From: a virus
IMG/VR virus record: IMGVR_UViG_3300028569_000021
Coordinates: 29,778 to 93,777 of that record
DNA: 64,000 nt
Reading direction: 5' to 3' (one strand)
Below the pieces are notes generated by a model that saw nothing but the letters and a program-made list of their open reading frames with translations, was not told where the DNA came from and made no database searches. Position 1 is the stretch's first letter, and each line of letters opens with the position of its first letter. Positions 29,278 to 63,859 of this stretch are shown in pieces. A program made the position numbers and the translations under genes.

Positions 29278-29718
29278 GGGGGTGTACTGGTTTTCGATTT
29301 ATAATTGAAACCTAAGAGTGCATGCAGAGGTTAATCGATGGCCTCTATAAAAATCGATTAAAAACCTAAATGCAGAGGATAATACTTCTGATCTTTTAGC
29401 TGAAGCTGAATACATCATCAATCACGCTGACGAGTTTCTCGTTGGTTGTGAAGATGAGTACGAACTCGCAGCCTAAAAGCCTAATAGAGGATCCTCTAAA
29501 TCTATTTTGAAACGCAGAGGTTTTGATGAACTGTTAGAGATCATAGAAAAACTAATACAGAGGGAACATACGACCTGATCACGTATGTAGGCAGACTTTA
29601 AAAGATGGTCGATGAGCCAAGACAGCCTTTAGTCAAAAAATGTCAAATTCATCTAAGCATGTAGTACCTTTTAGAAGATATTGTAAAGACAGGGGTTCGA
29701 ATCCCCTCACCTCCACCA
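29278..29718 (+). ncRNA. ssrA: tmRNA (ssrA), one-piece, with an unusually long tag
   Basis: The 441-base RNA rescues stalled ribosomes and tags their products. The 5' GGGGGTG pairs with 3' CACCTCC, then A and an encoded CCA. The 5' part reads TACTGGTTTTCGA, as in bacterial tmRNA, and the 3' T arm has GGGGTTCGAATCCCC. The tag frame starts at GCA 29372 (base 95 of the RNA, close to the usual place) and ends at TAA 29474-29476. It encodes 34 residues, starting AEDNTSDLLA and ending EDEYELAA. Most known tags have about 10 residues. The YxLAA end is the classic protease signal. Confidence 0.92.
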
Positions 29719-42866: not shown

Positions 42867-43496
42867 TTAGGTAGAAAAAATATCTAAAAAGCCACTTTTA
42901 ATTTTATCCAAAGCACCTACAATACTAAAATCTTCTTCTTCTGGCTTTAAATTATTAACTGCTGCATAATCTGCCTTTTTAAAGTCTGCTGGTGACATAG
43001 CAGGTGAACCTTGCCCTGTAAATGATCCACCTGCTAACAGTGTACCGCTACCGGTTGCTTGCTTATAAAAAGAAGAAACATACTGAGGCCATTGAGCATT
43101 GGTACCCTTAGGGTCGTTTGATGCTCCAGGGGGAGCGTACTTTGCCCCTATTTCAGGTATTGTATTTAGCCCTTGATTGATATACCCGCTTTTTAAAAAT
43201 CTTGCTTGATCAAAAATACTACTTTTAACATTACTATAATATTTATGGGTTTTGGTTTTTGGATCCCAAACTCCTCCTACACTATTATTTCTTTTAAAGG
43301 AGCTAGATGTACCTCTACCTGTCTCGAGCATAGCTATAGAAGCAGTAAGATAAGGATCTATATTATATTCTACACCTGCAGCAACAAAATCAGCAGCGTA
43401 CGGTTTAAGACCTCCTTGTAAAAAAGTTTGTAAATCTCTTACTACCTTTTCTTTGTCTAGAATATTTTCGTAAATATATTGCTTAAATGATTGCAC
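42867..43496 (-). CDS. Peptidoglycan hydrolase, glucosaminidase (GH73-like), with packaging-type leader
   Basis: 209 residues from a GTG start. Leader MQSFKQYIYE (Glu10). The enzyme domain reads AAGVEYNIDPYLTASIAMLETGRGTS in its core (helix with the likely catalytic Glu), then SFKRNNSVGGVW and FLKSGYINQGL, as in FlgJ/GH73 domains. It ends with SIVGALDKIKSGFLDIF, shared with the next gene. CTAAATAAATAA precedes the GTG. Probably virion-borne and acting on entry. Confidence 0.75.
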   Translation of the reverse strand: MQSFKQYIYENILDKEKVVRDLQTFLQGGLKPYAADFVAAGVEYNIDPYLTASIAMLETGRGTSSSFKRNNSVGGVWDPKTKTHKYYSNVKSSIFDQARFLKSGYINQGLNTIPEIGAKYAPPGASNDPKGTNAQWPQYVSSFYKQATGSGTLLAGGSFTGQGSPAMSPADFKKADYAAVNNLKPEEEDFSIVGALDKIKSGFLDIFST

Positions 43497-43510: not shown

Positions 43511-44152
43511 TTAAGCGCCAAAAATATCACTTATACCAGTCTTTATAGCATTCAATGCTCCTTGTATTGAGTCAGAGCTTGACTCAACATCACTACCCCC
43601 GGGGGTAGTACTTGAACCTACCCCGTCAATAGCTGCTTCTGGTTCTTCTTGTTCTTCAGGTGAACCTTGAGTAGAAGGTGGCGCAACTGAACCATCACCC
43701 ATAACTTTTTGCTTTCCACTATACTCTGCTACATTACCTGTATAATCAAAATGATGTCTCTCGTTAGTAGAATTTAATTGTTTAAACCCATATTTACCGC
43801 CGTTTTTTACAAACCACTCCCAAGACTCATCTTTAGTTAAATCAATAGATAATCCAAACCCGTGATTAGATCTACCAGGTCTAGCAGCTTGACCAGCTCC
43901 ATACTGTCTAAAAATCATATTCTGCTGGTCAATATTACGATACGAACTATTAGGGCCTGCTAGTGTTAGGGGTTTACCTACACTAGCCTGGCAATCTCTT
44001 TGAGCTCTTTCGAAAGCTGCAGCTGCAGAACCAACTAACTTATTACCCTGCCTATCAATAGGTCTCATTAAATTGTCAGGTACTTGACCGTTAACAATTT
44101 TATTTGAATCTAGTTGAGTAACTTCGTTTAAAAAGGCCTTAAAGGTAATCAC
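43511..44152 (-). CDS. Peptidase M15-like (D-Ala-D-Ala type) with packaging-type leader
   Basis: 213 residues from a GTG start. Leader MITFKAFLNE (Glu10). The catalytic region has SNHGFGLSIDL (zinc His and Asp) and a later RHHFDY (second zinc His). It cuts peptide cross-links in peptidoglycan. The tail SIQGALNAIKTGISDIF resembles that of the glucosaminidase next to it, so the two lysins may dock on the same virion site. Confidence 0.8.
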   Translation of the reverse strand: MITFKAFLNEVTQLDSNKIVNGQVPDNLMRPIDRQGNKLVGSAAAAFERAQRDCQASVGKPLTLAGPNSSYRNIDQQNMIFRQYGAGQAARPGRSNHGFGLSIDLTKDESWEWFVKNGGKYGFKQLNSTNERHHFDYTGNVAEYSGKQKVMGDGSVAPPSTQGSPEEQEEPEAAIDGVGSSTTPGGSDVESSSDSIQGALNAIKTGISDIFGA

Positions 44153-49900: not shown

Positions 49901-49908
49901 TATTTATA
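49901..49908 (-). promoter_or_regulatory. T4-like late promoter, exact TATAAATA
   Basis: Exact TATAAATA on the minus strand, 6 bases before the ATG at 49894; it lies in the 3' end of the upstream gene. Confidence 0.7.
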
Positions 49909-51529
49909 ATTCATCAAGCAAGTCATCAAAGGTAGATACTACGCTTTTATCCATATCTTGTGTATATATTTCTTTTTGCTTATATTTTTTAATAGCATCC
50001 ATAGTGATATTATCATCAGATGGTAAAACATATTGTTTAGCATTTGGTAACCCCTTTAAAGATTTTACCGGGTTATCTGTAAAAGAAAAATAATTACCTG
50101 CATCTTTTAAAGATCCTTCAAAATTTTCTAAATTATTATAACTAACGTTTACGTGATCTTTTACCTTTTCCGGAAAATTATTTAAGCTTGTTAAATCTAA
50201 AAATCTTAACTCTAATATATCCATCTCTTTAGGTAAACCTACAACACTATTGACATGTACGTTATAAATTTCTAAAGATCTTAATTTTGGAGGTAAGAAT
50301 GTTAAATCTTGAATTACTCTTTTTGATTTACTAGCAGCCGTGTGTTGAATAGTCCAATTTGAGTCTTTCTTAGGTTGAATACATAAATAGTGTACCGTGT
50401 CCGGAATGTTAATATTAGTAATAATAGAATTATAACTATTATTTAAATGATATTTATATTTAGCGCTAGGATGGGAAAAATCGCAGTCTTTAAACCATTT
50501 TTCGTTAATATCGCTTACGTTGACCTCGTTATGTGCATATTTAAAGTTATTCTTTATTTCTATGCTTGGGTTAATAATCTTAAACAACTTTTCTGGGGTA
50601 GGGTTGTTTATTATATCAATTATTTCACTTGTATATTTAATAATAGAAGCTTCTGATAAATTTTTAGGTGTTAGGGTTAAGAACTTGGGAGTAAAAACTG
50701 CACCTAAAGTATTAGCTGTATCATCATAATTTATTATTCCTGTAACTTCTTCATACATATAATTTTTGTATGGAAAATAGATTGCATAAGGAGAAACGGC
50801 ATTATTATAAAATAGACTGTTTTGTAAATTACTAGGCTTAAAAGCTTCTGTGTAAGTTAAATTTTTAAGTTTTTTAGTTATAGAGTTATTAAATCTTACA
50901 ATTATATAATTAGTTTTTATTAAATTAATTACTTCTGGGTCCTGTTGGTCTAATAAATCTGGTATATGACTTATTTTTAACCCGACCATATTTGGTGTCA
51001 TATCCTTAATAGGTTTTACTGCTAAGACGGTTGTTGTTACTTTACCATCTTTTGTAAAGAGTTGTAATGGTGTAGGTAACCAATTAAAACCGAGTGGTGA
51101 ATCGCAGAAGACATCTACAATCCTTTTTTCCATTCTTTCATTATTTTGTAGAGGTCCATCGTACGAGTCCTTGCTTCCTGGTTTTACTAAATCAGCCGCA
51201 TTAATAGTAAGGTTAGGATCTTTACTATATTTTTCTGCTACTTTAACATCTTTAAAGGGCCCATAAAGAAAGTGACCATGAATACCGTGTATACTTTTAT
51301 CAGAAAAGAACTCTACAGCAAACTTGGAATAAGATCCAGGTATATTCTTATACGCAACTACTCTACCGATTTGGTTTATGTAAGGTAGAGTTTTTTTAGG
51401 TTGATATACGAGCCATTTACCGTTATCTCTTACAACTACAATATCGTCTATTTGAAATTTTGCGCGCAGAGGTGAGTCATAAAAATCTTTATAAACAGAT
51501 TCAATAAAAAAATCTTTAAATATTTGCAT
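49904..51529 (-). CDS. LRR-containing protein with packaging leader and shared C-terminal tag
   Basis: 541 residues. Leader MQIFKDFFIE (Glu10). The N-terminal half is beta-rich (FQIDDIVVVRDNGKWLVY). From about residue 410 there is an LRR-like solenoid: LPPKLRSLEIYNVHVNSVVG, LPKEMDILELRFLDL and VNVSYNNLENFEGS. It ends VVSTFDDLLDEL, the C-terminal tag shared with the 55-59 kb proteins. TTAAATA lies 10 bases before the ATG. The architecture recalls secreted LRR effectors; function unknown. Confidence 0.6.
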   Translation of the reverse strand: MQIFKDFFIESVYKDFYDSPLRAKFQIDDIVVVRDNGKWLVYQPKKTLPYINQIGRVVAYKNIPGSYSKFAVEFFSDKSIHGIHGHFLYGPFKDVKVAEKYSKDPNLTINAADLVKPGSKDSYDGPLQNNERMEKRIVDVFCDSPLGFNWLPTPLQLFTKDGKVTTTVLAVKPIKDMTPNMVGLKISHIPDLLDQQDPEVINLIKTNYIIVRFNNSITKKLKNLTYTEAFKPSNLQNSLFYNNAVSPYAIYFPYKNYMYEEVTGIINYDDTANTLGAVFTPKFLTLTPKNLSEASIIKYTSEIIDIINNPTPEKLFKIINPSIEIKNNFKYAHNEVNVSDINEKWFKDCDFSHPSAKYKYHLNNSYNSIITNINIPDTVHYLCIQPKKDSNWTIQHTAASKSKRVIQDLTFLPPKLRSLEIYNVHVNSVVGLPKEMDILELRFLDLTSLNNFPEKVKDHVNVSYNNLENFEGSLKDAGNYFSFTDNPVKSLKGLPNAKQYVLPSDDNITMDAIKKYKQKEIYTQDMDKSVVSTFDDLLDEL

Positions 51530-51556
51530 GTTTGATAAGTATTTAAGTAATTAATT

Positions 51557-53050
51557 ATGTATTTAAAGCAAGAAGAGTCAAATATTTTTTCACGCTATGT
51601 CTCGTTATTAAAAGAACAGAATGCAGCTCCACCTGCTGATGAATCTAATAAACTAGAGGACCCAGAATATTTTAGAATGTTTGAGAATAGATTATTGGCT
51701 AGTATCAATCATCTTTATAAAAATCATAGATTTTATGGCATAACATTGAGAAAGTTAAAGACAGTACCGACTTTAACTGTGCCTACCATGGCTGTAGATG
51801 ATTATAATAATATATTCATTAACCCTAATTTCCTTATAGATGAGTTATCTATAGAAGAAGCGGCAGGTGTATTGGCTCATGAATGCTTGCATATAATAGG
51901 TAAGCATCTGTTTAGACTTGGTAATAGAGATATGTCCTTATGGAACTGGGCTACTGATTTTATTATTAATATGAACTGCTTGCAGGATGGAATGGCTCTT
52001 CCTAAGTTAGGTCTCATACCTCAACAAGACCCTAGTGGTAGGTGGCACGCTAAGGTAAAGGGTAAGAAGGGTGATCTAGATATTGATATTACAGATTTAA
52101 TTCCAGAAGAACTTTACGATATATTAAATGCTAATGCTGAAAAGATAGACCAAAATGGTATGAATCAACAGCAACAGGAGATGGACGAACATATTAATGA
52201 TCAAACAGGAAGACCTCAAATACCTAACAATGCAAGTGATAACGATAGCTATAAAGCAGATGGTCCTAGTGGTGGAGGTAAGTCTAAATCGGCCGGTGAA
52301 AAAGAAGCCCAAGCAGAAGATATAAAAAAGAAATCAATAGGAGAAACTAAAAAGGATCAAAGTAGAGGAATGGGTGGAAGTTTACCTAGAATGATTTCTA
52401 AAGAAGAAGAGACTCCTAGAGTTAATTGGAGACAAATTTTAAAAAGATATTTAAAGGTAAGTGCCTCATCTTATGAAACTTACATGAGACCTAGTAGAAG
52501 AGGTTTAGCGAGAGGAATAATTCAAAAAGGAGAAAGAAGTATTCCTGATAAAGTTGATGTAGTAGTGGCTTGTGATACTAGTGGCTCTATAACTCCTGAA
52601 ATTTTGAATCTTTATACAACAGAAATTATGTCAATTTCTAAAGCGTATAAAAGCGTTTCTATTCTTTTAATTCTATGGACAACAGAAGTTTATTTTGCTG
52701 CAAAAATAGAAAAAGGTACTATAGAACCTATCTATTCTGCTGTAGCGGGTAAAAAAGAAAATATAAATAATAAAACAATAACAATTGCTAATATACCCTA
52801 TAAAGGAGGTGGTACAATATTATCTAGCGTTCATAAGTGGTTTAATGACAACCGTGCGATTGCGGTAACTAAAGCAAAATTATTAATAGTATTTACTGAC
52901 GGTCATGTTGAAGACCAACCTGTATTTCCTAAGCAATTTAATAAGAGGAATACAATTTTTATGGTTAATGATCCTCAATCTGGTGGTATAGATGATATAG
53001 TTAAAAAATATGGTACTGCCATTTATGTAAAAGTTGGTAAATACACATAA
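51557..53050 (+). CDS. Metallopeptidase-like plus VWA domain protein (DUF2201-like) with leader
   Basis: 497 residues. Long-type leader ends LLKE (Glu20). Residues about 50-150 form a putative metallopeptidase: AAGVLAHECLHIIGKH contains HExxH, followed by WNWATDFIINMNC. A charged linker (about 205-285) leads to a VWA domain with a metal-site motif DTSGSI and a late FTDGHVED. The next gene is a MoxR-type ATPase. Such pairs act as ATP-driven protein remodelling or metal-insertion machines in bacteria; the target here is unknown. Confidence 0.75.
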   Translation: MYLKQEESNIFSRYVSLLKEQNAAPPADESNKLEDPEYFRMFENRLLASINHLYKNHRFYGITLRKLKTVPTLTVPTMAVDDYNNIFINPNFLIDELSIEEAAGVLAHECLHIIGKHLFRLGNRDMSLWNWATDFIINMNCLQDGMALPKLGLIPQQDPSGRWHAKVKGKKGDLDIDITDLIPEELYDILNANAEKIDQNGMNQQQQEMDEHINDQTGRPQIPNNASDNDSYKADGPSGGGKSKSAGEKEAQAEDIKKKSIGETKKDQSRGMGGSLPRMISKEEETPRVNWRQILKRYLKVSASSYETYMRPSRRGLARGIIQKGERSIPDKVDVVVACDTSGSITPEILNLYTTEIMSISKAYKSVSILLILWTTEVYFAAKIEKGTIEPIYSAVAGKKENINNKTITIANIPYKGGGTILSSVHKWFNDNRAIAVTKAKLLIVFTDGHVEDQPVFPKQFNKRNTIFMVNDPQSGGIDDIVKKYGTAIYVKVGKYT

Positions 53051-53059: not shown

Positions 53060-54682
53060 ATGAAGTTTTTTAACTCTAGTAAAGATGATTTGTTTGATGC
53101 CTATAAGAGTGTTTATATAAAAGAAGCTGTTAACCCTAAGCCAGCACTGCAAAGTGTTCAACCAAAAAAGAAAGCTCCTGCAGTTATAGCGCCTGCACCA
53201 GTTCCTTTCTCTGGTGGTAAAGTAGGTAAACCAGCACAGCAACCTCAAGCTGCAGATGAGATACCATCTGATCCAACACCTGATATAGAAGCAGAAGATA
53301 TTATTAATAAAGCTGCTCCTATGGTTAATGCTATTAATCAAGGTGAAGATTTAGACCTAGAAGACATTTTAAATCAAACAGGTGGCGTTGATGACGTCAA
53401 TTTACCTACTTACAAAGATACAGATTTACCTGAATGGGACTATGAAGATGTAGAACCATTAGTACAAAGATCTTACGACCTTAAAGAACCAATTTTGATA
53501 TATGGTTCTGCTGGTATTGGTAAATCTACTATAATTGAAGATTTTGGTAGAGACATTGCTGCTGCTTCTACAGGTAGAATTTATAAGAACTGGGATGATA
53601 CATCATATCAGGAAAAAGAAGAGATGATGTATCATCCAGAAAAGTACTTTGGAATGGTTAAGATTCTGCCTAACAAGTATACTCCAGAAGATATTCTCGG
53701 TGTACCTAAAGTAATGAATCAAAAAGAATGGCTTGTTACAGATAAATTTATGTGGATTGAATATTTGTCGCGTCCAGGTGCTGCTGGTATTCTATTCCTT
53801 GACGAGCTCAATACTGCTTCAGCGAGAATGCTTTATAGTTTATATGAAGTGGTTCTAGATAAAGCAGCTGCGGGTACGAAATTTGCTCCTGATGTTGCAA
53901 TTATGGCTGCAGGTAACTTAGAAAACGAGCTTAACCCAAACTTAGAGCCACTACCCCAACCTTTAGTAGATAGATTTACAAGCGGTGTGTTAGTAGCTGA
54001 CGTTGACAAATGGGTTGAGTTAGCTAAAAAATGGAAAGTTGATAGAAGAATATTGACGTTTGTTCTTTCTAATCCTAAAGATAATTTTTATGCTGAGCCA
54101 ATTACCGGTGGTGGTGGATCTCCAACACCTAGATCATTAGTGAAGTTTTCTAATATGCTTAAGCATATATATAAAGATTATAGTGATAAGATTAAATCAG
54201 GTGCACTTATTAAGAAACCTATTCTCAGACAAATTGGTAAAGCAGCTGCAGGTAAACTGGGTACTAAATGGGCTAAAAACTTTGTTGAATTTTTAGCTTA
54301 TAGTAGATCATTTAATTTTGCAGACCTCATTAAGGACGCAGCAAATCTTAATAAGAGAAAGAAAGCCGAGATTAGCGCCTTACAATTGTATTTGCTAGGT
54401 AGAGCAGAATGGGCCACAAAACAATTAATAGGCGTCCCGCAAGAAGCCATTAACGATCCTAATGTTAAGGAAGTTATGGAAGGTATTCTTACTGTCTCAA
54501 ATGCTCTTGACAATAATTGGAATATTAACTTATGGGTAATGTTCAAGAAGGATATGGCACCTGAACTGTTTAAATCATTAATGGTATATACTGTTCAAGG
54601 CGATTATAACCCTACAGTGAAAGCTGCAATGGTTGTAAAGATGAAGAAAATTGGTAAAATCTTAAAAGGAGAAACAGAATGA
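53060..54682 (+). CDS. MoxR-type AAA+ ATPase with packaging-type leader
   Basis: 540 residues. Long-type leader ends YIKE (Glu22), then a Pro/Ala/Lys linker to about 125. ATPase core: Walker A GSAGIGKST near 150, Walker B ILFLDELNTAS, sensor 1 in AIMAAGNLENEL with RF arginine (QPLVDRF), and sensor 2 in PTPRSLVKF. Partner of the metallopeptidase-VWA protein directly upstream. It overlaps the next gene by 4 bases, which has a good ribosome site (AAAAGGAG). Confidence 0.85.
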   Translation: MKFFNSSKDDLFDAYKSVYIKEAVNPKPALQSVQPKKKAPAVIAPAPVPFSGGKVGKPAQQPQAADEIPSDPTPDIEAEDIINKAAPMVNAINQGEDLDLEDILNQTGGVDDVNLPTYKDTDLPEWDYEDVEPLVQRSYDLKEPILIYGSAGIGKSTIIEDFGRDIAAASTGRIYKNWDDTSYQEKEEMMYHPEKYFGMVKILPNKYTPEDILGVPKVMNQKEWLVTDKFMWIEYLSRPGAAGILFLDELNTASARMLYSLYEVVLDKAAAGTKFAPDVAIMAAGNLENELNPNLEPLPQPLVDRFTSGVLVADVDKWVELAKKWKVDRRILTFVLSNPKDNFYAEPITGGGGSPTPRSLVKFSNMLKHIYKDYSDKIKSGALIKKPILRQIGKAAAGKLGTKWAKNFVEFLAYSRSFNFADLIKDAANLNKRKKAEISALQLYLLGRAEWATKQLIGVPQEAINDPNVKEVMEGILTVSNALDNNWNINLWVMFKKDMAPELFKSLMVYTVQGDYNPTVKAAMVVKMKKIGKILKGETE

Positions 54683-55179: not shown

Positions 55180-55707
55180 ATGCGAGAGCTGATAGATAAG
55201 TTAGTAAGTGATATTGTTTTAAATAAAAAAGAACAATCTTTTGTTAAGACTATGGCTTCAAGTCTTGTTAAAACAAAGCTTTTAAATAATAGTCATTTTT
55301 ATGAAACTTTGTTTTTAATTAAAAGATTCTTTAATGCACCTAAAGTTGGTATTAGAGTTGTAGATGACCTACAGTGGGTAAGAATGGGCCCTGAGTGTAA
55401 GTCAATATTTGAAAAATATAATTATAAGTATCATTATCGTTATGATGGAGAGTCAATGGAAGACATATTTGCCATATTTAAAAAGTTTTGTATTAACCAT
55501 GGAGCAGATATAAAAGCAGGTATAAGTCCTGAAAACGATAAAAAATTACAAATTCCTTTACAGATGGCAGAAGAGCTTTTTAATCTTGCTTTTAGAGAGA
55601 CTCTTGCTAGACACAAAAATGATCCTACAATTAAAGAATACTTAATAATGAGAGATATACCTGAAGATGTGGATGATGTTTTCGGGGATTTAACTTCTGC
55701 GTTATAA
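55180..55707 (+). CDS. Hypothetical protein with FGDL-type C-terminal tag
   Basis: 175 residues. No leader, but the end, EDVDDVFGDLTSAL, matches the C-terminal tag of the 56.4-59.4 kb proteins. The body is helical with basic aromatic stretches (YNYKYHYRYDGESMEDIF). It lies 6 bases after the previous gene, the last member of the VWA/MoxR unit, and links that unit to the tag-bearing set. Confidence 0.6.
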   Translation: MRELIDKLVSDIVLNKKEQSFVKTMASSLVKTKLLNNSHFYETLFLIKRFFNAPKVGIRVVDDLQWVRMGPECKSIFEKYNYKYHYRYDGESMEDIFAIFKKFCINHGADIKAGISPENDKKLQIPLQMAEELFNLAFRETLARHKNDPTIKEYLIMRDIPEDVDDVFGDLTSAL

Positions 55708-55839
55708 TTTTTTTTCTTTTTTAACTTCTTTTATTAATGTAGTACATTCTAATAAAAGTCTATCTAGCTCCATACATTCCTCAAATGTTGGTTCTTCTAT
55801 TAACATTAACTCATCTATTTTTTTAATCTTTTCTTCCAT
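55702..55839 (-). CDS. Small acidic protein, 45 residues
   Basis: ATG at 55839 opens a 45-codon frame (MEEKIKKIDELMLIEEPTFE at the start) ending at TAA 55702. Entirely helical, Glu/Lys/Leu-rich, with two Cys. It overlaps the SemiSWEET-like gene by 17 bases in the same direction, so it completes a three-gene unit. Its 3' end overlaps the convergent 55180 gene by 6 bases. Function unknown. Confidence 0.55.
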   Translation of the reverse strand: MEEKIKKIDELMLIEEPTFEECMELDRLLLECTTLIKEVKKEKKL

Positions 55840-56110
55840 TGTCTTTATTCCTATACCAAAAATATAAAAGAACTCCAGATGTAATAATACCTGTAACGTA
55901 ATTCATGACCCACCACAAACCAAATACGTTATGGTACATATAAAGTAAACCAAATATATATCCAGACATAGATAGTATAATCATCAGTGGAGACAAATCA
56001 GAAGAGCTTTTAGTTTTAATAATCTTTATAATTTGAGGTAAAAAGCATGACATAAATGATAGAGTCATTAATATTCCGCACACCTCTCTTAGTATATCTT
56101 TTGTTGTCAT
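55823..56110 (-). CDS. PQ-loop (SemiSWEET-like) membrane protein
   Basis: 95 residues, three membrane segments: ILREVCGILMTLSFMSCFLP, LMIILSMSGYIFGLLYMYH and WWVMNYVTGIITSGVLLYFW. The FLPQIIKIIKTKSSSDLSP stretch is the PQ-loop signature. Bacterial SemiSWEETs of this size form dimers that move sugars across the inner membrane. Its start overlaps the upstream gene by 4 bases. A transporter in a phage is unusual; the substrate is unknown. Confidence 0.75.
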   Translation of the reverse strand: MTTKDILREVCGILMTLSFMSCFLPQIIKIIKTKSSSDLSPLMIILSMSGYIFGLLYMYHNVFGLWWVMNYVTGIITSGVLLYFWYRNKDNGRKD

Positions 56111-56370
56111 CCGTTAATAAGTTGAGTGTTTGTTGTCAATTTAAGATATCCATCAACAAGAGAAGTGTTGTTATATATTTGAGATTCCTTTTCTACTACT
56201 CCTATATACTTATTATAGGGCAACCTAAAGCCGCAACAAAGAAGAAAATTTTCAAAACCTCTGCACATTTCTTCTATATTACCACAATCTGTATTGATTG
56301 TATAATTAATCTTTGAGTCTGTACCGTGAGTAGTTTTATAACTAAAAGTTATAGTAGTAAGCTTTTCCAT
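56107..56370 (-). CDS. Hypothetical protein, 87 residues
   Basis: The frame opens at 56385; ATG 56370 (MEKLTTITFSYKT) is the more natural start. Contains CRGFENFLLCCGFRLP, a stretch I have a sense of from other phage small proteins, with three Cys. Ends in a beta-rich, Asn/Thr-rich tail. Coupled to the SemiSWEET-like gene. Function unknown. Confidence 0.6.
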   Translation of the reverse strand: MEKLTTITFSYKTTHGTDSKINYTINTDCGNIEEMCRGFENFLLCCGFRLPYNKYIGVVEKESQIYNNTSLVDGYLKLTTNTQLING

Positions 56371-56411
56371 AACTATATTATACAATACCTAAACAACTAA
56401 TCAAGATATAA

Positions 56412-56936
56412 TTAAAGTTCATTTAAGATATCTCTAAATGTATTAGAAACTTCTTTATCTGCTTTATCTAGACCATAAACTTCATTCTCTCTATATTTTT
56501 TATAAGCAATAACATCTTTCTCCACTACATGACCTGGTGTAAAATAATATACAGTATCTAGAAGTACTTTTTGTATTTTAAGTTTTACTTTTTTAATAGC
56601 ATTTTCTTCGTTTTCTTCATCAATATTTTGCTGATTTGATAACTCATCATTTAGGATACTATTAATTGTATAATTAAGAGAGCGTACATGTGTAAAGATA
56701 TTAACAAATGTATCTAGCATCTTACCTCTACCGTGTAAAACAGGTTTAAGTATTTCGACAACAAGACGAATAATAACTAAATTAATTTCTTGCAATAGTC
56801 TTGGCCTATCATTATTCATTTTATTATATATTACTATACATTCTTTTGCAGATTTTGTTATTATGTCATCCTCTCTTTGGGTGAGAGTCTCTCTAATATT
56901 ATTCTCTAATAAGTACCTGACCTTCTGATAAAACAT
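56412..56936 (-). CDS. Hypothetical protein with packaging leader and shared C-terminal tag
   Basis: 174 residues. Leader MFYQKVRYLLE (Glu11) and C-terminal tag VSNTFRDILNEL. The body is all helical (INLVIIRLVVEILKPVLHG, AIKKVKLKIQKVLLDTVYYF). It has the same overall plan as the plus-strand cassette at 57.1-59.4 kb but lies on the opposite strand. Function unknown. Confidence 0.6.
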   Translation of the reverse strand: MFYQKVRYLLENNIRETLTQREDDIITKSAKECIVIYNKMNNDRPRLLQEINLVIIRLVVEILKPVLHGRGKMLDTFVNIFTHVRSLNYTINSILNDELSNQQNIDEENEENAIKKVKLKIQKVLLDTVYYFTPGHVVEKDVIAYKKYRENEVYGLDKADKEVSNTFRDILNEL

Positions 56937-56947
56937 TAAAAGTATTT

Positions 56948-56971
56948 AATAGCTGTAAGCCACTCGTCAGC
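56948..56971 (+). repeat. 24-bp repeat, left copy
   Basis: 22 of 24 bases match 59517-59540. The two copies flank the five-gene cassette in the same orientation. On the minus strand this copy reads YVKKTADEWLTAI, a possible remnant of a gene end. Confidence 0.7.
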
Positions 56972-57015
56972 TGTTTTTTTAACATAAATAAATTAAAAGA
57001 ATAAAGATGTTCTAA

Positions 57016-57078
57016 TGTATTGTTTGGCGTGATCAAAAAGCATCAGATACCTTTGGAGATTTGTATAATGAATTATGA
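57016..57078 (+). pseudogene. 3' remnant of a lost cassette gene
   Basis: After a TAA at 57013-57015 the frame reads CIVWRDQKAS and then DTFGDLYNEL followed by TGA. The last ten residues match the C-terminal tag of the genes downstream. No start is present. The TGA overlaps the ATG of the next gene, the same junction used within the cassette, so this is most likely the end of a deleted paralogue. Confidence 0.7.
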
Positions 57079-57515
57079 TAAAGAGAAGCTTTAAAAAATA
57101 CATGACAGAAAACGGACCGGAAGTTATAGAAAAGAATTTCTATATTGAAGGTGAGGAAGATCCTACCTTGCAATATATTATAAGAGTACCTCTAAAAGTA
57201 AAAGAAGATGGACAGATAGAAGTTTTAGATAACCTGCGCAGGAGGACGGAAATTTTTTATCTCAAAACAACAAAGGATGTAAAGAGTACGAAAGATACAA
57301 GTTATAAGACTGTATATAATATAGGATATTTAAATTATACATTTAAAAAAGGCATTTCGATAGGACAAAACTATGATAGGTATAATCTAAGGCCTGTAAT
57401 AGACTTTTTCTTTAAACTTGCGCCTACAGCTGTGAGAGAGTATAATACAGATATTATATTTGCTTCAGAAAAAGAAACACAAGATATTTTTGGAGATTTA
57501 TTTAACGAAGTATGA
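57075..57515 (+). CDS. Cassette protein A (leader plus C-terminal tag)
   Basis: 146 residues. Leader ends YMTE (Glu12); tag TQDIFGDLFNEV. The body is beta-rich and shares VIEKNFYIEGEEDPTLQYII with the same region of the next protein (KNFYVGDDEPNLQYHI), so A and B are paralogues. The start ATG lies inside the remnant's last codons; the stop overlaps the next ATG. Function unknown. Confidence 0.65.
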   Translation: MIKRSFKKYMTENGPEVIEKNFYIEGEEDPTLQYIIRVPLKVKEDGQIEVLDNLRRRTEIFYLKTTKDVKSTKDTSYKTVYNIGYLNYTFKKGISIGQNYDRYNLRPVIDFFFKLAPTAVREYNTDIIFASEKETQDIFGDLFNEV

Positions 57516-57982
57516 AACCGTTTAAAACATTTATATTGGAAAATAAAAAAACTAGCTCTCTTGAGATAATGAGCAAGAATTTTTATGTCGGTGATGATGA
57601 ACCTAATCTTCAATACCATATCGAATTAAGCTCTATTCATAATTTTGTAATATATGTACCTCTGATAGTTAATGATAAAGAAAATATATCTGTTAAGACG
57701 AGCCTTAGTAATAGTATCGATTTTTGGTATAGGTTGCCAAGTCAACAGGGACCTAATGATGCATTAAGATGGAAAATATATGCTCGTGGTAAAAAAGATC
57801 TTAAAAGCCTTATATATTATACAAATAGTGGGGTAACATTAAATAAAAAAGAGAAGGAAATATTATCTAATTTTTATAAAGATATAATTGATGGTAATAT
57901 TAAAGAGTATAATGATAAGATTAACTTTGGAGATGATGAGGATGTAAAAAATACGTTTGGAGATATTTACAATGAACTTTGA
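57512..57982 (+). CDS. Cassette protein B (leader plus C-terminal tag)
   Basis: 156 residues. Leader MKPFKTFILE (Glu10); tag DVKNTFGDIYNEL. Paralogue of A by the KNFYVGDDEPNLQYHIELS region and VPLIVND. The bases coding NEL-stop also contain the ATG of the next gene in another frame. Function unknown. Confidence 0.65.
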   Translation: MKPFKTFILENKKTSSLEIMSKNFYVGDDEPNLQYHIELSSIHNFVIYVPLIVNDKENISVKTSLSNSIDFWYRLPSQQGPNDALRWKIYARGKKDLKSLIYYTNSGVTLNKKEKEILSNFYKDIIDGNIKEYNDKINFGDDEDVKNTFGDIYNEL

Positions 57983-58439
57983 TAAATTAATAGATATAAT
58001 ATTAGAAAATAATAGAGGTTATGTAATAATAAATAAAGAGTTAATTGCTAACAATTGGGATAAATATGACGATCCTCAAATTAGATTTGAGCTAGAGATA
58101 GATGGAGTATACCACGAGTGTTATTTTCCTTTAGATTATAAAGATGTAAAGTTTAATACCTTAAAAGTAGAAACAAAAAAGTGGGATTTTGCGTTATGGC
58201 GAAAAGATAAAATAACTAAAAAAGTTAACTTGATAGGTAGTATCGTTAAGCCATCAGAGGATAAAGAAGAGATGATGCTTAAATTAGCTAAAAGTAAACT
58301 TGATAAAAAGCACAAAGAAATAATGGCAGATTTATTAGATATAGCGTTTCAAATGCTGGAAGACCATAATAACGAGCAAATGACAAATGGTAAAAGTGAA
58401 GTATATGATGTGTTTAAGGATACATTTGATGAATTATAA
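57972..58439 (+). CDS. Cassette protein C (leader plus C-terminal tag)
   Basis: 155 residues from ATG 57972; the frame is open a little further, to 57957, but the internal ATG gives the leader MNFDKLIDIILE (Glu12). Tag VYDVFKDTFDEL. The body differs from A and B: strands (FELEIDGVYHECYFPLDY) then a long Lys/Leu helix. Function unknown. Confidence 0.65.
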   Translation: MNFDKLIDIILENNRGYVIINKELIANNWDKYDDPQIRFELEIDGVYHECYFPLDYKDVKFNTLKVETKKWDFALWRKDKITKKVNLIGSIVKPSEDKEEMMLKLAKSKLDKKHKEIMADLLDIAFQMLEDHNNEQMTNGKSEVYDVFKDTFDEL

Positions 58440-58441
58440 TT

Positions 58442-58927
58442 ATGTTTTATAAAAAAATAAATAGTATATTAGAGGAAGCTGCTACAAGGCCTCCTTTTGA
58501 AATGTTATTGGAAGGTAAGACGGTACAGGAGAACTATACAGCTATATCACCATTAGATTACTCTGATGTGGTAATAAGAGTAAGACACGGTGATGAGCGT
58601 AAATTAATGTTCTTTGAAAGATATAAAGTCACCAGCGATAAGAAGGAAAACTTAAAGTATATTAAAGATGAGTTAGTACCTAAGTTACCAGAAGGTGTTG
58701 ATGCACAGTGGGAAAAACATTACTTAGTTTACGGAATGGAAATAATGGTCAGGTATAGTGTATACAATGATGATGGGTTTTATCAAAGATGTGTATATAT
58801 AGTAAAGTATCCTAAGACTTGGAGTTCAGAATTATGGAAGGATGACCTCTTTGAAGCTTACTTGAAACCTACAAACTTAACAGGTGATGTTAAGGATGTA
58901 TTTGGAGATGTATATGGTGAACTTTAA
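58442..58927 (+). CDS. Cassette protein D (leader plus C-terminal tag)
   Basis: 161 residues. Leader MFYKKINSILE (Glu11), continuing EAATRPPFEML, coded by the same 44 bases as in protein E. Tag DVKDVFGDVYGEL. The body is beta-rich with VVIRVRHGDERKLMFFERY. It starts 2 bases after C. Function unknown. Confidence 0.65.
   Translation: MFYKKINSILEEAATRPPFEMLLEGKTVQENYTAISPLDYSDVVIRVRHGDERKLMFFERYKVTSDKKENLKYIKDELVPKLPEGVDAQWEKHYLVYGMEIMVRYSVYNDDGFYQRCVYIVKYPKTWSSELWKDDLFEAYLKPTNLTGDVKDVFGDVYGEL
58465..58508 (+). repeat. 44-bp exact direct repeat (second copy 58943-58986)
   Basis: The stretch beginning TATATTAGAGGAAGCTGCTA is identical in genes D and E, 478 bases apart. It codes the end of the leader and the next residues. 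The flanking bodies differ, so the leader region was copied or recombined separately from the body. Confidence 0.9.
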
Positions 58928-59402
58928 TAAAACCGTAAAGTATATATTAGAGGAAGCTGCTACAAGGCCTCCTTTTGAAATGTTATCGGAATTAAACTAT
59001 TCTAGTATTTTACTACTACAAAATAAACAGCATTATATAGGAAGAAATGCGTTTGGAAAAGTTTTTGATATTAAAAAAGGTAAGTTGTTTTATGGGCCTA
59101 GATCTAGAGCTAATGGCATGATACTCATTAAAGGACGTAATGAATGGATAAAAAATATTAAAAAGAACTGGCGTAAGGGACATATTGTAGGGGGAGGTGA
59201 ACTAAGAAGATACTTAGATTCTGCGTCTAGAGAAAAAGTTATAAATGATGATGATATAAAATATGTTGTTAACGATTTAAGTATACTTCCTAAGTTTACA
59301 ACACTATTTACTGGTAAGTTAGTTTATCTTGAACCAACAGATTGGGAACAAGCACCACAAGAAGTAAAGAATGTATTTACGGATATGTTCGAAGAGATGT
59401 AA
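58914..59402 (+). CDS. Cassette protein E (leader plus C-terminal tag)
   Basis: 162 residues from ATG 58914, inside the tag codons of D; the frame is open from 58884, but only the later start gives the leader (MVNFNKTVKYILE, Glu13). The segment EEAATRPPFEML repeats that of D. Tag VKNVFTDMFEEM. The body has basic GRNAFGKVFDIKKGKLFYGP and differs from D. Function unknown. Confidence 0.65.
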   Translation: MVNFNKTVKYILEEAATRPPFEMLSELNYSSILLLQNKQHYIGRNAFGKVFDIKKGKLFYGPRSRANGMILIKGRNEWIKNIKKNWRKGHIVGGGELRRYLDSASREKVINDDDIKYVVNDLSILPKFTTLFTGKLVYLEPTDWEQAPQEVKNVFTDMFEEM

Positions 59403-59410
59403 ATACTAAT

Positions 59411-59517
59411 ATGACTTTTGATGAAGAGTTAATTGTATAAAAGAGAAGCAACAAGAAGAGCATAAGTTCATTCTTATTGACCCATCAGAATATCAAACAG
59501 CAATAATTTATTCTTAA
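59411..59517 (+). pseudogene. Possible frameshifted small gene
   Basis: ATG 59411 opens MTFDEELIV and stops; a one-base shift continues into EKQQEEHKFILIDPSEYQTA and on to a stop at 59515-59517. It could be the decayed end of the cassette. The evidence is weak. The rest of 59403-59548 holds only the right copy of the 24-bp repeat. Confidence 0.3.
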
Positions 59518-59540
59518 ATAGCTGTAAGCCCCTCGTCCGC
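59517..59540 (+). repeat. 24-bp repeat, right copy
   Basis: Pairs with 56948-56971 (22 of 24 identical). On the minus strand it reads KKIADEGLTAI then a stop, directly behind the end of the 59549 gene but one frame away. Confidence 0.7.
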
Positions 59541-59548
59541 AATTTTTT

Positions 59549-59947
59549 TTATACGTAACCAAGAGCTACTAATCGTCTAAATCTCTTTTCTCCACATTCA
59601 TCGCTATGAGCGTACATATCAAATGTTGGATCGCAAGTTATACAACCGGCATCACCCTCAGTTACAATAGCGATTCCGTATCCTCCGTTGTCTACCCAAG
59701 TAGCTTCCCAAGGAAGTTTATTATTATCTGCTCCGGCAATAGCAGGCCAGGATCCTGGATTAGCTTTATCTATTAAATGCCATTCTTGGGTTGGAAGGGA
59801 TTCGAAATATTGAACACTAAATGTTATAGCACCGACTACTCTTTCCCAAGAGTCTTTTCCATTTACTGGAGAGGCAAGTGTATATACTCCGTTAGGATTA
59901 ACTCCACCAACGTCATTTAAACTACAAACTGTAATATTAGCTGCCAT
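59549..59947 (-). CDS. Hypothetical protein, probably structural
   Basis: 132 residues, beta-rich with aromatic and Gly/Asn turns (SPVNGKDSWERVVGAITFSV), a CITCDPTF segment and a C-terminal CGEKRFRRLVALGYV. A GATAAATA box (59953-59960) is 5 bases before the ATG, so probably late. Just past the stop, in another frame, the sequence KKIADEGLTAI is similar to a remnant at 56.95 kb; the gene may have been longer before a shift in an eight-A run. Function unknown. Confidence 0.6.
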   Translation of the reverse strand: MAANITVCSLNDVGGVNPNGVYTLASPVNGKDSWERVVGAITFSVQYFESLPTQEWHLIDKANPGSWPAIAGADNNKLPWEATWVDNGGYGIAIVTEGDAGCITCDPTFDMYAHSDECGEKRFRRLVALGYV

Positions 59948-61121: not shown

Positions 61122-61304
61122 TCAGTCGAATGAATACATCCTTGCATCTTTATCAGCTGCAGCATAGTTTTTTGCTAGTGCCTCAGCGCTCTCCTTGGTT
61201 GCTTGTCCCTCCGAGATTTGCATCCATTGGCCTTTACCAATATACCCGACAACAAAATATAAAGGACACTTGACAGACTTTTTAACGACCTTGTAGTTCT
61301 TCAT
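61122..61304 (-). CDS. Small hypothetical protein, 60 residues
   Basis: Start chosen at ATG 61304; the open frame further upstream (to 61343) is promoter sequence. Lys-rich start KNYKVVKKSVKCPLYFVVGY, then a helix SAEALAKNYAAADKDA. The start sequence CTGTAATG is shared with other genes of this region. Function unknown. Confidence 0.55.
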   Translation of the reverse strand: MKNYKVVKKSVKCPLYFVVGYIGKGQWMQISEGQATKESAEALAKNYAAADKDARMYSFD

Positions 61305-61314
61305 TACAGTATTG

Positions 61315-61343
61315 ATATTAGTGTGTGTTGGTGGACAGTTCAA
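61315..61343 (-). promoter_or_regulatory. Early-type promoter P2 with palindrome
   Basis: TTGAAC, 17 bases, TAATAT, 10 bases, ATG 61304. A perfect 12-bp palindrome TTCAAGCTTGAA (61339-61350) overlaps the -35 and could be an operator. The bases from 61351 to 61420 hold no gene that I can support. Confidence 0.7.
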
Positions 61344-61420
61344 GCTTGAAGTTGTACAATAAATCCACCAACACTAGAACTCAAAGGATTACCCGAAGAC
61401 AACGTGAATCTGACTTCATG

Positions 61421-61636
61421 TTACCAGACAGAATTCATAGCGTCAGCCTGCTGATCAGCCCACACTTCAGCCGTATCTTGGAAGTGTTTAAGTGCCTTCT
61501 CTTTGGACTCCCCATCTTGGATATGCTTCATGATATCTTTAATTGTCCAGCATTCAACAATCACATCCCAGCCGCCATCGTTGTAATGTTCTTGGGCGTA
61601 GTTGTAAATGTATTGAGCAATTTTTTCTTTGTTCAT
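61421..61636 (-). CDS. Small hypothetical protein, 71 residues
   Basis: Start at ATG 61636, directly after the promoter; the open upstream codons are promoter sequence. Helical: NKEKIAQYIYNYAQEHYNDG, then HIQDGESKEKALKHFQDTAE. Aromatic and acidic. Function unknown. Confidence 0.55.
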   Translation of the reverse strand: MNKEKIAQYIYNYAQEHYNDGGWDVIVECWTIKDIMKHIQDGESKEKALKHFQDTAEVWADQQADAMNSVW

Positions 61637-61646
61637 AACAGATAAG

Positions 61647-61675
61647 AGTGTAGAGGTTTTGGGTGGACAGGTCAA
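61647..61675 (-). promoter_or_regulatory. Early-type promoter P3
   Basis: TTGACC, 17 bases, TACACT, 10 bases, ATG 61636. The -35 overlaps the stop codon of the upstream gene. Confidence 0.75.
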
Positions 61676-61866
61676 CCTCTTTGCTGGAGGACCTTGAACT
61701 CCTTATCAAGGTCCTCCAGCTCCTTCTCCAGTCCCACTAGCTCGGCAAGCAAAGCATTCAGTCGGGCGTTCTTCGGATCGTACATATCCAGAAGAGTATC
61801 CTGATGCTTCTTCACCTGTTCGGTTGCGCCGCCGAGTTCTGCACGTTGTATGTAAATATTATTCAT
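61672..61866 (-). CDS. Small coiled-coil protein, 64 residues
   Basis: Almost wholly helical with Leu heptads (LNALLAELVGLEKELEDLDK). Its ATG overlaps the upstream stop (ATGA), so it is the third gene of a coupled trio. Its stop overlaps the P3 -35. Function unknown. Confidence 0.6.
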   Translation of the reverse strand: MNNIYIQRAELGGATEQVKKHQDTLLDMYDPKNARLNALLAELVGLEKELEDLDKEFKVLQQRG

Positions 61867-61994
61867 TGTGTGTATTGTGGCTGCTCTGAGGAGGAACTAC
61901 CAGCTGATTCTTCGATTGTTCTATAAGCTTGACTGTCCAGCTCGGCTAGCCAATCATCATAGCCGGGCCAGACCTCTTGATCGTCGCTATTCAT
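61863..61994 (-). CDS. Very small acidic protein, 43 residues
   Basis: ATG 61994 overlaps the stop of the upstream gene (ATGA) and its own TGA overlaps the next ATG. Reads MNSDDQEVWPGYDDWLAELD, then a Ser-rich end. The two exact ATGA junctions make it credible despite its size. Function unknown. Confidence 0.6.
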   Translation of the reverse strand: MNSDDQEVWPGYDDWLAELDSQAYRTIEESAGSSSSEQPQYTQ

Positions 61995-62176
61995 AGATTG
62001 AATTTTAATTTGATATCCTGAATCAATTGCTGTAGCCAGGCAAGTGCAACGAGTGCAAATAATACGAACGGTACGAACGATTCATTGAGCTTACTCCCTC
62101 TCCGGTCGATAGCTTCTATTAACCGGTCGATAGCTGCTAGCAAACGATCAAGAGTTGATAGCCTTGTTTGTCTCAT
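61991..62176 (-). CDS. Small single-span membrane protein, 61 residues
   Basis: An Arg/Leu-rich helical start (LSTLDRLLAAIDRLIEAIDR) followed by one membrane segment, FVPFVLFALVALAWLQQL. First gene of the coupled trio. Upstream, TATAGA occurs 8 bases before the ATG without a clear -35. The region 62177-62296 holds nothing else that I can support. Confidence 0.6.
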   Translation of the reverse strand: MRQTRLSTLDRLLAAIDRLIEAIDRRGSKLNESFVPFVLFALVALAWLQQLIQDIKLKFNL

Positions 62177-62296
62177 TAGTTTCTATAGCGAAGTAATTGA
62201 TTTGTTTTTTATAATTTAAACGTTCTTCTTATATGATGTACCTATTATAATGACGGAACTACTAGAGGAGTGTAACTATTAGAGGTTTGTCTCTCA

Positions 62297-62509
62297 TTAG
62301 ACCGCGCATGCGTAGTGCACATCTATCACCATATCGAATGAACCATGCTGCTTATAGAGGCTGACCATCTCGTGATTTACATCCGAGCTCCCTACCTCCT
62401 CCGCTCCGTTCTCGATTAGACTGTCTGCAGCTGCGCGACGCATAAGGTGCCGTTCGACAAATGGGAGGCTCTTATACTCCTCCATGATTTCGTGGAATGT
62501 TTTTTTCAT
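62297..62509 (-). CDS. Small hypothetical protein, 70 residues
   Basis: Helical N-terminus (KKTFHEIMEEYKSLPFVERH) and a mixed C-terminus ending YACAV. It follows a 20-codon peptide gene by 4 bases, probably from promoter P4. Codon use is richer in G+C than in the rest of the window. Function unknown. Confidence 0.55.
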   Translation of the reverse strand: MKKTFHEIMEEYKSLPFVERHLMRRAAADSLIENGAEEVGSSDVNHEMVSLYKQHGSFDMVIDVHYACAV

Positions 62510-62513
62510 ATAA

Positions 62514-62576
62514 TTAGCGCTTTTTGATACCGACTTTGATTCGTTTAGTTGTTGCGTAGAAGTAGATGTTTTTCAT
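62514..62576 (-). CDS. 20-residue basic peptide
   Basis: ATG 62576 comes 10 bases after the P4 -10. It encodes a strongly basic, aromatic peptide starting MKNIYFYATTKRIKV and ending KKR, then TAA at 62514. It could be a real small product or a translated leader for the next gene, 4 bases on. Confidence 0.45.
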   Translation of the reverse strand: MKNIYFYATTKRIKVGIKKR

Positions 62577-62586
62577 TACAGGTAAG

Positions 62587-62615
62587 ATGATATAGGAACT
62601 AGTGGAGGAACTCAA
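62587..62615 (-). promoter_or_regulatory. Early-type promoter P4
   Basis: TTGAGT, 17 bases, TATCAT, 10 bases, ATG 62576. The -35 overlaps the stop of the upstream gene. Confidence 0.65.
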
Positions 62616-62854
62616 GCTGGAAATGCTGGATATTGCCAATATTGGGTGTTGAAGGAGGTCACGTAATGTTCGCCAGTACTATGAGGCATACCCGAGAACA
62701 CCTCTTCACCGGTCTCATCATCCTTGACGATCACGAGGTCATCGGCACGGCCTTTCACAATGTACTTGACTCGCCGGGCTTCTTTGACGAGACTCTTGAA
62801 GTGTGCTGAAGTTATAACGCGGACGAATGATTTGATTTGTGTTGGTGTGTTCAT
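62612..62854 (-). CDS. Small hypothetical protein, 80 residues
   Basis: Basic helical start (SFVRVITSAHFKSLVKEARR), then a beta-hairpin-like DDLVIVKDDETGEEVF and an aromatic end, FNTQYWQYPAF. Preceded by TAATAT and CCTGTAATG, the same start context as other genes here, and by a short leader peptide. Function unknown. Confidence 0.6.
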   Translation of the reverse strand: MNTPTQIKSFVRVITSAHFKSLVKEARRVKYIVKGRADDLVIVKDDETGEEVFSGMPHSTGEHYVTSFNTQYWQYPAFPA

Positions 62855-62867
62855 TACAGGATTGATA

Positions 62868-62888
62868 TTAGTGTGTGTTGGTATTCAT
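62868..62888 (-). other. Six-codon leader peptide between P5 and the 62612 gene
   Basis: ATG 62888 lies 10 bases after the P5 -10 and codes MNTNTH then TAA; 13 bases later the next gene starts. The surrounding bases repeat the P2-type start region (ACTAATATCAAT then CTGTAATGA), so this may be a duplicated start module rather than a regulator. Confidence 0.45.
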
Positions 62889-62898
62889 TACAGATAAG

Positions 62899-62927
62899 AC
62901 TATAGAGATTTCAGTTGGACAGCTCAA
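62899..62927 (-). promoter_or_regulatory. Early-type promoter P5
   Basis: TTGAGC, 17 bases, TATAGT, 10 bases, ATG 62888. Confidence 0.7.
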
Positions 62928-62929
62928 GA

Positions 62930-63178
62930 TTATTCTTCATCATCTTCATCTTCTTCAAGATCATCAAGAGCTTCTTGATATGCTTCAAGCACATCATTCA
63001 CTCTATCTACTTTACATGCAATACCATCCTCAAGAAAGATGATATCCCAATTGTCATCACCAATAATCTCTCCAACTATATCGAGATCAACACCTTCTGG
63101 TGCTTTTAAGAAGACTACATCAGCGTGAATGTGAACTTGTTCAATTTTCATTTTGTTTGATTTGGATTTGTTTTTCAT
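62930..63178 (-). CDS. Small acidic protein, 82 residues
   Basis: ATG 63178 follows promoter P6; ATG 63151 (MKIEQVHIHADVVF) is an alternative. Beta-rich core (VGEIIGDDNWDIIFLEDGIA) and a very acidic end, DDLEEDEDDEE. The acidic tail recalls DNA mimics, but that is only a thought. Function unknown. Confidence 0.6.
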   Translation of the reverse strand: MKNKSKSNKMKIEQVHIHADVVFLKAPEGVDLDIVGEIIGDDNWDIIFLEDGIACKVDRVNDVLEAYQEALDDLEEDEDDEE

Positions 63179-63188
63179 TACAGATAAG

Positions 63189-63217
63189 AGTATAGAAGTT
63201 TTGATAGGACAGTTCAA
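63189..63217 (-). promoter_or_regulatory. Early-type promoter P6
   Basis: TTGAAC, 17 bases, TATACT, 10 bases, ATG 63178. Best match of the set to the bacterial consensus. Confidence 0.8.
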
Positions 63218-63258
63218 GAAAAAAGAGTCTCTCTAACCTCTTCAGTCAGAGAGACTCT
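63218..63258 (-). terminator. Intrinsic terminator
   Basis: Perfect 11-bp stem AGAGTCTCTCT with AGAGAGACTCT (63224-63234 and 63248-63258), 13-base loop, then six T on the minus strand. It ends the 63274 transcript directly before promoter P6. Confidence 0.85.
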
Positions 63259-63273
63259 ATAACTCTTTGTGAA

Positions 63274-63537
63274 TTAATCACATAAACAATTTTGAGCCCA
63301 CTCTCTTACTTCTGTCATCCAACTCTCGTAAGTACAAGACTTTACATCCATATCTGTAAAGTCTTGTGGACCATATCGTTCTTCATACTCTTTTAAACTC
63401 ATTGCAAAGAAAGGAGTATCAAACATTACTTCAGTTAAGTTTGTATCTTCTTTATCTAAAAGAGTTTGCAAATGTTGCTCGTCTTTTACGTCAGTTAAGT
63501 TAACAATTGTTTCTGCTTCGTTGTCTAGTATTTTCAT
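63274..63537 (-). CDS. Small acidic protein, 87 residues
   Basis: Starts MKILDNEAETIVNL; contains VMFDTPFFAMSLKEYEERYG and ends in a Cys/Trp-containing helix (WMTEVREWAQNCLCD). Net acidic. It has its own promoter (P7) and terminator. Function unknown. Confidence 0.65.
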   Translation of the reverse strand: MKILDNEAETIVNLTDVKDEQHLQTLLDKEDTNLTEVMFDTPFFAMSLKEYEERYGPQDFTDMDVKSCTYESWMTEVREWAQNCLCD

Positions 63538-63546
63538 TAGATTTAT

Positions 63547-63575
63547 ATATTAGGTGCTCCGGGGGGAACAATCAA
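63547..63575 (-). promoter_or_regulatory. Early-type promoter P7
   Basis: TTGATT, 17 bases, TAATAT, 9 bases, ATG 63537. Confidence 0.75.
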
Positions 63576-63588
63576 GGAGGAATTTTAT

Positions 63589-63644
63589 ATATTGTTTTCT
63601 GCTGTTTGTCCTTGCGGTCCCTTTGGTTTCCGCTAAAACAATAT
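63589..63644 (-). other. Structured intergenic RNA element
   Basis: A 10-bp stem ATATTGTTTT/AAAACAATAT encloses an inner GCGG/CCGC hairpin. It lies between the stop of the 63644 gene and promoter P7, without a T run. It may be a terminator variant or a small structured RNA. Confidence 0.4.
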
Positions 63645-63820
63645 CACTCTGTCATTTTAGATTGTTCTATCGAGCGTTTAAGGTAGGATAGAGTCTGAGT
63701 CTCATTGCTTAGAAGCCGGAGCCCATTAATGGTAGCGGTTAGAAAGCCGATGATGTAATCTTTGGACTCACCTCTCTTCTCCAGGTTTGTCACGATCTGT
63801 TGTGCGTAGTTGGTATTCAT
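63644..63820 (-). CDS. Small hypothetical protein, 58 residues
   Basis: Start at ATG 63820, 10 bases after the P8 -10; the longer open frame (to 63859) is promoter sequence. Helical: NTNYAQQIVTNLEKRGESKD and IGFLTATINGLRLLSNETQ. Function unknown. Confidence 0.55.
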   Translation of the reverse strand: MNTNYAQQIVTNLEKRGESKDYIIGFLTATINGLRLLSNETQTLSYLKRSIEQSKMTE

Positions 63821-63830
63821 TACAGATAAG

Positions 63831-63859
63831 AGTGTAGTGGCTATTGTGAGGAACGTCAA
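63831..63859 (-). promoter_or_regulatory. Early-type promoter P8
   Basis: TTGACG, 17 bases, TACACT, 10 bases, ATG 63820. It abuts the stop of the next gene upstream. Confidence 0.75.

Follow-up and report, generated by a model that had tools for sequence, protein, structure and literature searches.

Seven proteins encoded in the window, by which we mean the whole stretch of 64,000 nucleotides analyzed here (bases 29778–93777 of G000, a 93,777-base virus record that is itself a fragment), end in a common C-terminal tag and start with a leader-like N terminus. The nearest precedent is the internal proteins of phage T4, and we therefore propose, with a probability of about 0.45, that the tagged genes encode capsid cargo of that type whose tag is a second C-terminal helix that would dock in the prohead core. 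Capsid cargo as such is already known from T4; the comparisons below suggest that the tag is a previously undescribed docking tag. By its gene content, G000 is an uncultured T4-like phage: it encodes a gp17-related large terminase, baseplate and tail proteins, gp55, and gp43. No portal, scaffold, major capsid, prohead protease, or prohead core gene was found in the part of its ORFs that was scanned. A phage-encoded tmRNA is located beside a tRNA-Ser (29278–29718, + strand). The tagged genes and the features around them are as follows.

49904–51529 (−): W7, tagged, 541 aa; leader MQIFKDFFIE, tail VVSTFDDLLDEL
51540–51546 (−): late-promoter-like TTAAATA, 10 nt ahead of the W7 start
51557–53050 (+): DUF2201 putative metallopeptidase/VWA-like protein, leader present, adjoining the tagged cluster
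53060–54682 (+): MoxR-like AAA ATPase, leader present, adjoining the tagged cluster
55180–55707 (+): gene with a degenerate tag (DVFGDLTSAL), matrix score 16
56412–56936 (−): W6, tagged, 174-aa body that looks predominantly helical; leader MFYQKVRYLLE, tail VSNTFRDILNEL
56943–56949 (−): late-promoter-like TTAAATA, 6 nt ahead of the W6 start
56983–56990 (+): late-promoter-like CATAAATA, preceding the orphan tag and the array
57016–57078 (+): orphan gene remnant of 20 open codons that ends in the intact tag CIVWRDQKASDTFGDLYNEL*
57075–57515 (+): W1, tagged, apparently family A; leader MIKRSFKKYMTE, tail TQDIFGDLFNEV
57512–57982 (+): W2, tagged, apparently family A; leader MKPFKTFILE, tail VKNTFGDIYNEL
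57972–58439 (+): W3, tagged, probably family A, start codon inside the W2 tag; leader MNFDKLIDIILE, tail VYDVFKDTFDEL
58442–58927 (+): W4, tagged, family B-like, motif SPLDYS; leader MFYKKINSILEE, tail VKDVFGDVYGEL
about 58914–59402 (+): W5, tagged, family B-like; leader MVNFNKTVKYILEE, tail VKNVFTDMFEEM
59446–59517 (+): probable family-B gene remnant HKFILIDPSEYQTAIIYS* just past the array, recognized by eye and resembling the LxPxxY region of G001 proteins

The starts originally listed for W3 and W5 (57957 and 58884) are more likely ATG 57972 and about ATG 58914, each within the preceding tag.

The tag is 13 residues long and helix-like. Its strict form, (D/E)VxD(T/V)FxDh(F/Y)xE(L/V/M), ends seven ORFs of the window and no further ORF of the 93.8-kb record. 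On the plus strand, the proteins ending at 57515, 57982, 58439, 58927, and 59402 terminate in DIFGDLFNEV, NTFGDIYNEL, DVFKDTFDEL, DVFGDVYGEL, and NVFTDMFEEM, respectively; the minus-strand proteins 56412–56936 and 49904–51529 terminate in NTFRDILNEL and STFDDLLDEL. A position-specific matrix was trained on these seven tags together with seven from a second record, G001 (IMGVR_UViG_3300028569_000142, 27.3 kb). The window tags scored 30 to 36 and both sets together 30 to 41, against 0.7 for the highest-scoring untagged C terminus and 11.2 for the highest of 34,140 internal 15-mers. A candidate likeness of the tag to the gp32 tail was rejected (score −4). A preliminary description of this DNA had listed eight C termini as sharing the tag. 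All eight are present and seven are strict, while the eighth, that of the protein at 55180–55707, fits the first half only and does not have the Glu; it is a degenerate tag and a weak member. The tag on the orphan remnant, directly ahead of the array, is a ninth, absent from that description, and points to gene loss behind a retained end.

Leader-like N termini were seen by inspection in 7/7 strict tagged proteins, in agreement with the earlier statement that most of them carry a leader. A strict leader regular expression matched five of the seven tagged genes versus five of 116 untagged ones (p = 2e-5), an enrichment to which their shared neighborhood may contribute. In the T4 capsid-targeting sequence, residues 4 and 7 are needed for targeting and residues 8 and 10 for processing (PMC9026906). 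Window leaders such as MKPFKTFILE and MQIFKDFFIE have hydrophobic residues and Glu at these four positions (the T4 leaders compared were MKTYQEFIAE of ipIII and MELITELFDE of alt), and the combination of hydrophobic residues 4 and 7 with a Glu near positions 10 to 12 was found in all seven strictly tagged window proteins and in one to three of the seven G001 proteins. The W4 and W5 leaders lie in a 69-nt direct repeat (58445–58513 and 58923–58991, 88% DNA identity), which, as the alignment reads, marks a 5′ end that was duplicated recently and now precedes different bodies. The spacing of the leader, h-x-x-h-h-x-E, recurs in the tag core F-x-D-h-[FY]-x-E, and the T4 alt segment ITELFDE resembles the tag FGDLFNE. 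A matrix trained on leaders ranked tagged above untagged C termini (p = 5e-4), with the same register in 12 of 14. Between 2 and 30% of random internal 16-mers reach most of the tag scores on that matrix, and the tags are not independent of each other; on these scores, the resemblance of tag to leader is weak and only modestly above chance.

The motif NTAAATA, a late promoter motif of the T4/cyanophage type, lies 5 to 16 nt upstream of approximately 38 starts in G000, versus about two expected. The genes that it precedes include those for the large terminase, sheath, and tube, leader genes, W6, and W7. Its presence ahead of W6, W7, and the array is a sign that the tagged genes may be expressed late. 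With the motif so near the starts of these roughly 38 genes, their transcripts may be nearly leaderless.

IMG/VR was scanned with several degenerate DNA patterns for the tag and with a peptide pattern, which covered part of the codon space, so that the carriers found are a lower bound. One further real carrier was identified, G001, in which seven tagged genes form a tandem array. The first of these has both the late-promoter motif and a leader (TATAAATA-5 nt-GTG-MESFKKFVKE), another has a leader-like start, and at least four of the seven have no obvious leader. The absence of the leader from most G001 tagged genes indicates that leader and tag are separable. G001 excepted, additional loci retrieved with three tag DNA patterns were short frames, antisense, or chance matches; the peptide LKDTFTDIFTEL occurred at five loci in an open frame of only 12 codons; and all 35 matches from a scan of GTDB genomes were short frames or unrelated proteins. 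Single-protein searches of IMG/VR found no relatives of W2, the VWA protein, or the MoxR protein, and tblastn against INPHARED with one G001 array member and W5 as queries gave no match.

The constant ends could also belong to one extremely divergent family fold, in which the tag would be the C-terminal helix, maintained by structure or function and not a separate docking signal. We regard this as unlikely, although some of the bodies look related. Full-length BLAST linked W1 to W2 (E about 4e-9) and W4 to W5, alignment grouped W3 with W1 and W2, and these three look like one family (A). W4, W5, and the G001 array proteins all carry LxPxxY and approach the tag through a strand-PT-helix run-in; they probably constitute a second family (B). 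The AlphaFold model of one G001 member (pLDDT 81) likewise ends in a strand followed by a helix at the tag, but that helix has a pLDDT of 71 dropping to 47, lower than most of the body. The W4-W5 link was gone after the leader and tail had been trimmed, and neither BLAST nor profile-profile comparison of the trimmed bodies gave a significant link between groups; the profile comparison, whose power is limited by the small number of sequences, gave only weak in-register matches. W6 and W7, which differ in size (174 and 541 aa) and have dissimilar bodies in the same low-power comparison, are 52% identical across their last 31 residues and share nothing besides. Sub-families aside, the mature bodies thus showed no mutual homology. 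Because the bodies comprise at least two array families and two unrelated proteins, one of 541 aa, the tag behaves as a module, and by these alignments it is one for W6, W7, and the array families at a minimum. The preliminary description was therefore right that constant ends sit on differing bodies; its reservation that all bodies might be one divergent family holds within W1 to W3 and probably within W4, W5, and G001, but not between these groups or for W6 and W7. Profile searches matched the array bodies to no Pfam or PHROG family, and fold searches with two array-body models (the G001 member against PDB and BFVD; the W2 model is poor, with a pLDDT of 60) found no match. Imperfect 36-nt direct repeats (86%; 56945–56980 and 59514–59549) flank the W1 to W5 array; they could act as a terminator or mark the edge of a cassette.

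Three other explanations assign the tag a different role. If it docks its carriers on the MoxR AAA ATPase and the DUF2201/VWA-like protein, or links them to this pair as an adaptor, its conserved acidic residues might serve as ligands of a metal site (MIDAS), and the tagged proteins would be clients of the pair. MIDAS sites bind acidic ligands, which fits, and both genes adjoin the array, as in MoxR/VWA chaperone pairs, and carry leaders as well. The likeness is one of gene position, however, gene proximity is the whole basis of the idea, and the partial 27.3-kb G001 has tags but no MoxR match; we consider this role distinctly improbable. The chances seem slimmer still that the tag is a sliding-clamp-binding motif of the T4 type, recruiting its carriers to DNA-loaded gp45. 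Like the C termini of gp43, gp55, and gp33, it is an interchangeable hydrophobic and acidic C-terminal peptide on unrelated proteins, with an h-x-x-h-aromatic geometry, and the RB69 gp43 end SLFDMFDF can be set beside the tag TFKDMFDEL, as can the DVFSDT end of the window gp55. Yet the invariant Phe, Asp, and Glu of the tag are not requirements of the clamp motif, whose core [SDT]-L-x-x-[LFM]-[FM] at the C terminus does not occur in the tags, and a matrix built from eleven clamp-binding ends did not favor the tags (p = 0.09), whereas it did pick out the gp43 end of this phage, one of its training sequences. Conservation mainly at the nucleotide level is hardly credible. Here a ribosome-binding site would be supplied by the FGD codons (TTTGGAGAT), and the end of the tag would overlap the next start codon, as occurs at W2-W3, W4-W5, and several G001 junctions, with GGAGAT 7 to 14 nt ahead of the next starts. 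However, W5, W6, and L7 of G001 retain the tag with no overlapping downstream gene, and the FKD and FRD forms have no GGAG. Codons for the tag Leu are TTA, CTT, or CTA, and those for Glu are GAA or GAG; such synonymous change at invariant residues argues for selection on the protein, and not solely on start codons or ribosome-binding sites that overlap the tag. Codon variation, together with tags at array ends and on separate genes, largely refutes a ribosome-binding-site origin as the sole cause.

Docking in the scaffold or prohead core is the best supported of the partners proposed in the preliminary description, because the tagged proteins have leaders of the T4 capsid-targeting type and their genes have late promoters. 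Under the capsid-cargo reading, the tagged genes would be expressed late, and the leader would serve for capsid targeting: it would direct its protein to the prohead core and then probably be cut after the Glu by a protease of the gp21 type. Between the ends, the variable middles would be the mature cargo, plausibly injected and acting on the host or its defenses. The tag, F-x-D-h-[FY]-x-E-L, would be a second docking signal, an amphipathic helix that can be joined to unrelated bodies and that would bind the same prohead core or one common partner within it. Array genes may have been gained, lost, and duplicated while their ends were retained. The T4 proteins Ip1 to Ip3 have only a packaging leader in common, are injected, and each inhibit a different GmrSD enzyme (PMC12373910); by analogy, the injected proteins of this phage may perhaps be anti-defense proteins.

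The likeness to T4 Ip1, Ip2, Ip3, and Alt lies in the short leader with its key residues 4, 7, 8, and 10, in those proteins the only part in common, and in the placement of the genes in a hotspot under the late promoter class. Unlike the T4 internal proteins, which have no common C-terminal tag, the tagged proteins have a second constant end, their genes form overlapping tandem arrays, and the G001 tags mostly occur without a leader. The case for cargo draws mostly on the co-occurrence of tag and leader, and the G001 proteins with no obvious leader count against it; packaging by the tag alone would be conjecture. Cleavage after the tag Glu would remove just one residue. T4 alt is cut near its C terminus (PMC9026906), and the alt end does not match the tag. 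We are more doubtful of a stronger version, in which the tag would itself be a new capsid-targeting signal, separable from the leader and able to work in its absence, as G001 implies, and T4-like phages would use it to load arrays of rapidly swapped effectors into the head. If the capsid-cargo reading is true, the tag would be a second route for addressing cargo to the phage head, besides the T4 leader. It would also be a handle for finding, in uncultured T4-like phages, injected proteins with unmatched bodies, and the proteins found in this way would probably include anti-defense proteins.

Other shared ends were seen elsewhere in the window. A glucosaminidase and a VanY-type carboxypeptidase (42867–43496 and 43511–44152, both − strand), which belong to differing families and both bear leaders, have a second common C-terminal motif; their ends, ALDKIKSGFLDIFST and ALNAIKTGISDIFGA, are identical at 8 of 15 positions and contain the DIF core found in some tags. 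The gp55 homolog (21477–22109, − strand) ends in KPTGYDNDVFSDT, which resembles the array run-in followed by a truncated tag and may be a chance likeness. At 61122–63859, several small minus-strand ORFs have much the same TTG-extended sequence upstream (MNCP..TS.LLSVM), which is probably a recurring promoter region of the early type.
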